DNA of 64,000 nucleotides, from contig JAQURD010000001.1 of NCBI GenBank assembly GCA_028749115.1, positions 152,218 to 216,217 on the forward strand. The letters are read 5' to 3'. Of the stretch, positions 36,438-38,675 are shown in pieces. The notes under the pieces were generated by a model, which searched no databases, was not told the origin of the DNA, and saw only the letters and a program-made list of their open reading frames with translations. Position 1 is the stretch's first letter. Each line of letters opens with the position of its first letter. Source of the stretch: Acidobacteriota bacterium (GTDB lineage: Bacteria > Acidobacteriota > Aminicenantia > Aminicenantales > Saccharicenantaceae). The translations under genes were made by a program, and so were the position numbers.

Positions 36438-37364
36438 TCACAAGCCGTAGACACCTGGCTTTTTAGCAAATAATCTGGCCTCGGCTATATCCTCAAAACC
36501 ACAGACATATCTGGTCAGGCGTTCAAGGCCAAAACCAAAACCGGCTGAAGGATAAAGCCCCCGGTCAGCCAGCCGGAGATAAAGCTCATAGGTTCTTAAA
36601 TCAATGCCTTTCTCCTGGATTCGTTTCCTTATTTTGTCTGGTTGATATTCTCTTTCACCCCCGGATAAAGCCTCGCCGAAGCCCTCAGGGTAAATTAAAT
36701 CCATGTCAACCAGAAGACCAGGTTTTTTTTCATCCTGCCGGTCGTAAAATTCCCGGTGCTCAAGTGGGAAATCCACCAGCCAGGCTGGCCCGGCCAGTTT
36801 TTCTGATAACTTCATTTCAAAATCCTCTCCATAAGTCTCGACCGCCTGCTGATAGCTAATCCGTTCAAAGGGTGGCCGGAAGGACGGTAATTTTCTTTTG
36901 AGCATTTTTAGCTCACTAGCCGCCTCTTTTTTAATACCATTAATAACCCGAGAAAATAGTTTCTCGCCCAGCTCAATTATTTCCTGCCGGCTGGCTTGCC
37001 TGACTTCGAGATCAAGCTGCACAAATTCGATCAAGTGACGGCCACTGTTTTTTCTATCGGGCGTTTCAATCCTGACATTAGGCGAAAAACAAAATATTTT
37101 GGGAACAGTACGCAGGGCCAGTTGCTTGTGAAAAATCATGCTTTTGGTAATCTGATATTTAAAACCATAACATTCGACTTCCCCCCTCACCCGGTAGTCA
37201 GTCAAAGGATCAGTAATAGGAGAAATGATCACGGGCAAAAGCTCCTGGAAGCCTGACTCCACCAAAAACTCGCGAATGAGTGTAATTAATTTTGTCTGGA
37301 TAGAAATGGCCAGAGGCAAACGGGGCGAAGCAAGTTGCTGAATATATTTATCAGTGTCAATCAT
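36438..37364 (-). CDS. Asparagine synthetase-like class II aaRS paralogue (AspRS/AsnRS catalytic domain only)
   Basis: 308 residues, a class II synthetase core without the N-terminal OB anticodon-binding domain. Motif 2 appears as CFSPNVRIETPDRKNSGRHLIEFVQLDLE and motif 3 as GFGFGLERLTRYVCG, both of the AspRS/AsnRS subclass. This layout matches the archaeal asparagine synthetase related to AspRS (described in Pyrococcus abyssi), which makes asparagine from aspartate and ammonia with ATP. SD AAGGAG precedes ATG 37364. Alternatives are tRNA-like or elongation-factor modification (EpmA-like), less likely given AspRS-like motifs. It converges on the M24 gene. Confidence 0.75.
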   Translation of the reverse strand: MIDTDKYIQQLASPRLPLAISIQTKLITLIREFLVESGFQELLPVIISPITDPLTDYRVRGEVECYGFKYQITKSMIFHKQLALRTVPKIFCFSPNVRIETPDRKNSGRHLIEFVQLDLEVRQASRQEIIELGEKLFSRVINGIKKEAASELKMLKRKLPSFRPPFERISYQQAVETYGEDFEMKLSEKLAGPAWLVDFPLEHREFYDRQDEKKPGLLVDMDLIYPEGFGEALSGGEREYQPDKIRKRIQEKGIDLRTYELYLRLADRGLYPSAGFGFGLERLTRYVCGFEDIAEARLFAKKPGVYGL

Positions 37365-37452
37365 CTTTTACTCCTTGATTGGTGATTTGCTAAAAAAATA
37401 GATCAATAAAAATTAACCGGAAATAAGGTTTTAATGGCAGGTAGAAATAGAC

Positions 37453-37473
37453 ACGTCCCCTAGAGGGGGACGT
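37453..37473. other. Perfect 8-bp hairpin
   Basis: ACGTCCCC, loop TAGAG, GGGGACGT, followed on the plus strand by TATTATTGG. Role unknown: a weak terminator, operator or part of a leader. Confidence 0.45.
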
Positions 37474-37506
37474 TATTATTGGCATGATAAGATAAAACAA
37501 AGATTA

Positions 37507-37590
37507 CTGGCTGGTTGGTAGACACCACCCGAAAGAGAAGGTCTTGTGTTCTTGCTTTTTCTCTTTTCATCTTAGCCAGCTTTTTAATTT
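37507..37590 (+). ncRNA. Candidate structured RNA ending in a T-run
   Basis: A closing stem CTGGCT/AGCCAG (37507-37512 with 37574-37579) encloses two further stems: TGGT/ACCA around AGAC, and a perfect AAAGAGAA/TTCTCTTT (37532-37539 with 37559-37566). The closing stem is followed by CTTTTTAATTT, a terminator-like T tract on the plus strand. No known riboswitch or RNA family is recognised, and no promoter is clear. Confidence 0.25.
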
Positions 37591-37818
37591 CTTAATTAAA
37601 TATAGACCCTTAACTTCCAGCCGTCAAGTGGAATATTAAAATAATTATACTTATATAAACGGCTGATACCTTTTTTATCTATTAATTAACCTGATAGCCA
37701 GGAAAAGACATTTTGCTTTAGCCTTTCTTTAAATATTGATTTACAAAAAAGTCGTCAAGGGAAGATAAATAATTTGTCAATAGTTCAAAGGCAATTAGAG
37801 GTATAATATAAAGAGAAG

Positions 37819-37950
37819 CTGAGGCGGAAGGAGCAAAAAGACAGGAAGGAAGAAGCCGTTGTTGCTTTAGTTCTGGCCGGTGATATTGAAAGCGGTGATT
37901 GTCCAGAAACTCAGCCCAGCATTCAACCTGAGTATGATCATATTAGATAA
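37819..37950 (+). pseudogene. Start-less protein-like open frame
   Basis: From CTG 37819 to TAA 37950 a 43-codon frame reads LRRKEQKDRKEEAVVALVLA then GDIESGDCPE and ends EYDHIR. A charged helix plus acidic tail looks protein-like. No ATG, GTG or TTG is available, and a stop lies 12 bases upstream of the CTG. It could be a gene remnant or use a rare start. Confidence 0.3.
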
Positions 37951-37973
37951 TATTGGATTAAATAGGTTTAATC

Positions 37974-38675
37974 ATGAGAGTCACTTTTAGTCAGCCGGTT
38001 TTCATTCCCTATGGTGGTTTTTTTGGTCGTCAGCTTAATTCTGATCTTATGATCCTTCTTGATCAGACTCAATTTCCTCGCGGTTTTACCTTTGTTAACC
38101 GTAACCGTCTAAAAGGGCCGTCTGGAGAAATCTGGGTGTCTCTTCCGCTGAGAAAAAAGGGCCTTGGCCTGCAAACTATCGGTGAGCTCCGCCTTCACCA
38201 GCCAGAAACATCAGCAAAAAAGTTCCTGGCCTTGATCAAACATTACTATGGACATTCTATACACTATGAATCTGTTTCACTTCAGCTTAAGGCCGTTTTT
38301 GAGCTGGTTCAGGATAGATTCCTCGAGCTGTGTTTAGAATCAATAAATAAGCTTAAAAGTTGGCTTGGAATTGCTTCTCCCCTTCTCTTACAGTCAGAAG
38401 TCGGCTTAACTGGACGTGGACCACAGCTTTTAATTGACTTAGCCCAAGAGGTAAAAGCGTCTGAAATACTTTTTCCCTATCTGGCTAGTTGCCATTTTGA
38501 TATCTCTGGATTTAGAGCAGCCGGATTGAAGCTAGTATTTCAAAAATACAACCAGGTACCTTATCCTCAGTTCTGGGGGAATTTTCTAGCCAATTTATCG
38601 GCCCTTGATCTTTACCTTTGTTGCGGGCCTGAGGGCAGCCAGATTATTAAAAAAAGTTGCAGACTCATAAAATGA
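37974..38675 (+). CDS. WbqC-family protein
   Basis: 233 residues. The start FSQPVFIPYGGFFGRQLNSDLMILLDQTQF and NRNRLKGPSGEIWVSLPL match the WbqC-like family (normally QP.Y.PW.G...K....D.fv..DdvQf, then NR..i....g..wLtiPv). The usual K for a lysine at the first block is changed to R. It is a cytoplasmic protein often found in surface-polysaccharide clusters, with unknown reaction. No clear SD is present before ATG 37974. It converges on the TIGR03960 gene within 16 bp. No glycan cluster is nearby here. Confidence 0.8.
   Translation: MRVTFSQPVFIPYGGFFGRQLNSDLMILLDQTQFPRGFTFVNRNRLKGPSGEIWVSLPLRKKGLGLQTIGELRLHQPETSAKKFLALIKHYYGHSIHYESVSLQLKAVFELVQDRFLELCLESINKLKSWLGIASPLLLQSEVGLTGRGPQLLIDLAQEVKASEILFPYLASCHFDISGFRAAGLKLVFQKYNQVPYPQFWGNFLANLSALDLYLCCGPEGSQIIKKSCRLIK

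Follow-up and report, generated by a model that had tools for sequence, protein, structure and literature searches.

Attenuation by leader peptides has been recognized for His, Trp, Leu, Ile/Val, Thr, Phe and Cys, mostly in Proteobacteria and Actinobacteria (PMC1262725; PMC2965389). The asnA and asnS genes of Firmicutes carry Asn-specific T-box leaders, which sense charged tRNA(Asn). A survey of 2010 noted hardly any annotated attenuators for Acidobacteria (PMC2965389). Leaderless leader ORFs encoding poly-cysteine have been described in mycobacteria (Seliverstov 2005, PMC1262725; Canestrari 2020, cited in PMC9031893), and Rho-dependent attenuation was proposed for them (PMC1262725). The structured RNA motifs uORFC-8-2 (cysS) and ilvB-II were found to hold an upstream ORF with control codons (PMC8632094; PMC10272879). 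In the open-access literature we found no report of an asparagine-specific leader peptide or of attenuation in the Aminicenantia group.

The window, the whole stretch of 64,000 nt that was analysed, belongs to contig C27 in a draft genome of 2.25 Mb. The region 37365-37973 within it separates two divergent genes, that of an AsnA-type asparagine synthetase of 308 aa (36438-37364, minus strand; NCBIfam NF005054 asparagine synthetase A, 374.8 bits with a cut-off of 309; PF00152) and a WbqC-family gene (37974-38675, plus strand; PF08889). The part of the region proximal to the synthetase gene very probably carries a ribosome-stalling, leader-peptide attenuator which senses asparagine via Asn-tRNA(Asn) and controls the synthetase gene. 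The functional strand is, judged from the sequence comparisons below, the minus strand. A reading of the sequence alone had proposed a candidate RNA in this region, and it was right in doing so; however, it took the plus strand and overlooked a short minus-strand ORF which starts with ATG, is rich in Asn codons and overlaps the hairpin. The start-less plus-strand ORF and the three-stem structure which it also included do not belong to the element.

The predicted element shares several properties with the mycobacterial cysteine leaders: a short ORF with a run of end-product codons beside the stop codon, little or no 5' untranslated region before the ATG, and no intrinsic terminator, with Rho-dependent or translational control suggested. 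It differs in the amino acid (asparagine instead of cysteine) and in the phylum (theirs being Actinobacteria), and a conserved hairpin that includes the stop codon is not known to have been described for them. The proteobacterial attenuators (his, trp, leu, ilv, thr, phe) similarly have a run of control codons, an adjacent protector hairpin and a stop codon in or near that hairpin. In the present case, however, the amino acid is asparagine, the stem is invariant in sequence, and neither an antiterminator nor a terminator is visible in the Aminicenantia; the homologue in G161, a genome from another class of the phylum, has these too. The uORFC-8-2 and ilvB-II motifs are also similar in their architecture, but they concern other amino acids, genes and phyla, and a terminator-controlled read-out was proposed for them. 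The Asn T-box leaders also control genes of this type in response to charged tRNA(Asn), but they bind the tRNA directly without translation, and no match to the T-box family (RF00230) was obtained in the window at the gathering cut-off or in six homologous loci at E-values up to 1. If our interpretation is right, it extends leader-peptide attenuation to a further amino acid and to a deeply branching lineage of uncultured bacteria.

The predicted leader ORF in the window (37460-37570, minus strand) has 36 codons with an ATG start, encodes MKREKARTQDLLFRVVSTNQPVIFVLSYHANNNVPL and ends with Asn-Asn-Asn-Val-Pro-Leu-stop. Its three putative control codons, AAT AAT AAC (37472-37480), were assigned from the sequence and by comparison with relatives; the bases preceding the hairpin, AATAATAAC, are Asn codons. 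A homologous leader was present at all 20 complete loci. Nineteen of these are the orthologous Aminicenantia loci with complete upstream DNA ("Candidatus Saccharicenans" and relatives; two further synthetase genes of the class, truncated at contig ends, were left out of this count), and in all 19 the Asn-rich ORF ends with Asn-Val-Pro (once Val-His) shortly before the stop codon and is accompanied by the hairpin. The twentieth is the leader of G161, whose peptide ends with NNNNNIRPP-stop. Examples of the peptides are MKFEDRFEEYHGKVKIITSLISIISNFNNNNNNNVPLL (G100), MKRLSRTTRERASGVCLLSLPPAGNLNLANNNVPF (G052) and MESKMVGIANISNQNKVNNNNNIRPP (G161). The strict test, which required an ATG-initiated ORF of 18-65 codons with at least three Asn among its last nine residues, was passed by 18 of the 20 loci, compared with 0.14 expected from dinucleotide shuffles; the two failures were G055, whose frame is five codons longer, and G099, whose ORF starts with GTG.

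The hairpin (37453-37473, minus strand), which in the RNA reads ACGUCCCC-CUCUA-GGGGACGU and in the DNA ACGTCCCC-n5-GGGGACGT, consists of 8 bp. The perfect 8-bp hairpin noted earlier is thus confirmed: its energy is -13.9 kcal/mol (z -3.9) and none of 200 shuffled sequences folded as well. It is conserved in 19 loci with a loop of 4-9 nt, and no second copy was found within the window. GUCCCC starts directly after the last Asn codon; this 5' arm represents the Val-Pro codons GUC CCC, the 3' arm is GGGGAC, and both are nearly invariant, with a single exception, GUCCAC. The stop codon UAG (37462-37460) spans the loop into the 3' arm, and a stop codon lies in or at the loop in all Aminicenantia loci except one. 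The hairpin is closed by a pair between the base following GGGGAC and the third base of the last Asn codon (AAC or AAU). Read from the codon, this pair was C-G in 10 loci, U-A in six, U-G in two and a C-A mismatch in one (Fisher p 0.006, not corrected for relatedness), and since this pair covaries, the synonymous choice between AAC and AAU tracks pairing. As the MAFFT alignment of the hairpin misplaced the 3' arm, the pairs were counted using position-anchored sequences and a model-based alignment. In the latter, which includes some opposite-strand matches of the same hairpin as well as both the window and L032 copies, 98% of cells pair, and the pairing was lost when the partner was slid. Compensatory changes, which the sequence-only reading had proposed to look for, are seen as C-G/U-A exchanges of the closing pair, and a structured, conserved cis-regulatory RNA element with a covarying pair is present.

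The only promoter-like site in the region, TTGACG-17-TATATT, matches the consensus at 10 of 12 positions with a 17-nt spacer (predicted -35 element 37622-37627, predicted -10 element 37599-37604, both minus strand). Such sites were no more common in the promoter scan than in shuffled sequences, and the assignment is supported by the conserved placement: a σ70-like promoter (TTGACR, 16-18 nt, TATAWT-like) precedes nearly every homologous leader. From the usual distance between -10 and +1, transcription in the window probably starts at about 37592-37590. In 13 of 20 loci, only 8-10 nt separate the end of the -10 box from the leader start codon. Transcription should thus start nearly at the ATG, and the leader ORF is probably leaderless. 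The leader ATG in the window lies 28 nt from the -10 box. An in-frame ATT (37588, minus strand) is found at a distance of about 10 nt, where the relatives have the leader ATG; it may possibly represent a rare start codon or a shift of the start.

The element is closely tied to the synthetase gene, which in the window starts 95 nt downstream of the leader ORF and has its own Shine-Dalgarno sequence AAGGAG (37371-37376, minus strand). At 16 loci (the window and 15 relatives with 57-79% protein identity), GTCCCC-loop-GGGGAC begins 71-112 nt before the synthetase start. The pattern AAYGTCCCCN{3,8}GGGGAC matched in 23 of 142 genomes of the class, at most once per genome; 16 of the 23 matches were at the synthetase gene, and the other seven, with no synthetase gene nearby, were mostly inside long ORFs. 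The exact motif CAATAAYGTCCCCN{3,7}GGGGAC gave 11 matches in 85 thousand genomes, 10 before a synthetase gene and one unrelated (Olleya). The covariance model, partly built from these same sequences, detected six sites in 396 genomes of the phylum, all before the synthetase gene. No convincing element was found elsewhere with either the exact motif or the covariance model, and no second Asn leader was seen before the Asn-tRNA synthetase gene of the same genome. Although the AsnA-type synthetase is patchily distributed within the genus (11 of 19 genomes), the leader hairpin accompanies it there wherever upstream DNA is available. Sequence comparison shows a predicted leader ORF with its Asn run, a hairpin with a stop codon in or beside the loop, a conserved promoter placement and an exclusive linkage to the synthetase gene, and the sensing half of the proposed attenuator is well supported by it.

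We infer that the leader is translated, that ribosomes stall on it and that regulation has the following direction. The promoter at 37627-37599 would start a 5' leader of about 230 nt, and a ribosome would translate the 36-codon ORF. If Asn-tRNA(Asn) is plentiful, the ribosome should reach the stop codon at the hairpin and leave, whereupon the GUCCCC:GGGGAC hairpin would re-form and synthetase expression would be low. If Asn-tRNA(Asn) is scarce, the ribosome would stall on the Asn codons and cover the GUCCCC arm, GGGGAC would be freed and the synthetase would be switched on. Codon-position changes among closely related leaders, which gave no clear purifying pattern outside the Asn-Val-Pro end, speak against this model, as does a stem sequence that varies less than coding and pairing would demand.

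If our interpretation is right, the leader of G161 (L124, about 1243-1420) provides a clean natural comparison, since the same Asn sensor would be coupled to a classical terminator in its class and to some other output in the Aminicenantia. Its five Asn codons are followed by a protector hairpin, whose loop holds the stop codon, and then by a strong terminator and its T-run. In the folding models, the terminator formed when no ribosome was present or when the ribosome stood at the stop codon, and the antiterminator formed when the ribosome was stalled at the last Asn codon; a ribosome stalled at the first Asn codon still left the terminator, which counts against attenuation. By these folding models, G161 is predicted to use classical attenuation upstream of the asparagine synthetase gene, and it would link an Asn run to the control of this gene independently.

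In the Aminicenantia, no intrinsic terminator was seen by inspection in the 38-90 nt following the hairpin, and no conserved downstream partner (third strand) for a freed GGGGAC arm was found. Sequestration of the Shine-Dalgarno sequence was rejected as the output, since its pairing and accessibility did not differ between natural and shuffled leaders. The spacer between the hairpin and the ribosome-binding site of the synthetase gene (37377-37454, minus strand) is rich in C and poor in G and may be a Rho-loading region. C exceeded G in 19 of 19 homologous spacers and in 8 of 29 other upstream regions of the window (Fisher p 4e-7), these control regions coming from one genome only. The window genome encodes Rho (637 bits). 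Because of the C-rich, G-poor spacer, the Rho gene and the lack of a detected terminator, Rho-dependent attenuation would be the most economical output, and termination by Rho in the spacer is our best guess for the Aminicenantia, although a weakly supported one. More broadly, we consider it a tentative proposal, possible rather than probable, that these bacteria have a terminator-free Asn attenuator in which a leaderless Asn ORF ends in an invariant hairpin that either gates the loading of Rho onto the C-rich spacer or is recognized in some new way, for which a factor binding the stem, a pause signal or stalling at the NNVPF-stop end may be considered.

The invariance of the stem, which exceeds what pairing and Val-Pro coding require, would also suit a hairpin GUCCCC/GGGGAC that is bound by a protein, with the ORF being incidental. 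The regulator might be the synthetase itself, which is related to Asn-tRNA synthetase and thus belongs to a class able to bind RNA. However, a protein site leaves unexplained the Asn run, the stop codon positioned at the loop (in all Aminicenantia loci but one) and the maintenance of the frame over loops of 4-9 nt, and G161 retains the Asn leader without the Aminicenantia stem. We therefore consider this explanation unlikely. Less likely still is a DNA operator, in which the palindrome GTCCCC...GGGGAC would be recognized by a dimeric transcription factor: the palindrome is near-perfect and lies upstream of a biosynthetic gene, but it was rejected as an operator because its half-sites are only 4 nt apart at some loci and up to 9 nt apart at others, and it is located where the ORF ends, far behind the predicted promoter.

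A functional small protein acting in trans, to which the basic residues near the N-terminus, the hydrophobic middle and the fixed tail of many of the leader peptides might point, is equally improbable: there is little conservation of sequence or length ahead of the Asn-Val-Pro tail, and the ORF is always in cis to the synthetase gene. A metabolite riboswitch for asparagine or aspartate, which a structured 5' leader ahead of a gene for amino acid synthesis might suggest, is the most improbable alternative, since only one small hairpin is conserved, with no conserved junction or pocket and no Rfam family, and the conservation is accounted for by the coding signature. In agreement with the earlier statement that no known riboswitch is recognizable, a known RNA family was rejected as the identity of the element: Rfam 15 at gathering scores detected only two tRNA-Ser genes in the whole window, both outside the region, and relaxed E-values gave nothing credible in six homologous loci.

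The leader-peptide attenuator accounts for the 265 bp proximal to the synthetase gene in what had been called the largest unexplained non-coding block, and the remaining approximately 345 bp resemble unconserved spacer. The closing stem with two inner stems and a T-run proposed on the plus strand (about 37507-37592) is a possible fold, but one of unremarkable energy on both strands (z -1.46 on plus and -1.31 on minus, with 22 and 20 of 200 shuffles as good), and it was rejected as an element; the stretch falls inside the leader ORF of the opposite strand. The start-less frame of 43 codons exists as an open stretch of 47 codons with a protein-like composition (37807-37950, plus strand). It was rejected as a gene remnant, having no other match in its own genome, no Pfam family, and nothing convincing in the wbqC loci or syntenic regions of relatives. 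Assignment of the element to wbqC was likewise rejected, as the hairpin of relatives goes with the synthetase gene, with wbqC located elsewhere or behind a gene for a C69-type dipeptidase. The DNA beside wbqC differs in relatives, those of the genus having the dipeptidase gene there.

In at least three relatives (L129, L130 and L131), the synthetase leader is separated from wbqC by the dipeptidase gene, sometimes together with a further gene. This gene is missing at that place in the window genome, and the synthetase gene and wbqC are thus neighbours. No significant match for a remnant of the dipeptidase was found in the rest of the region, the plus-strand half of which is probably a leftover of rearrangement. 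At another locus (L047, genome G041), the leader is intact and an in-frame TAA occurs near the start of the synthetase gene, which reflects either a decaying gene or an assembly error.
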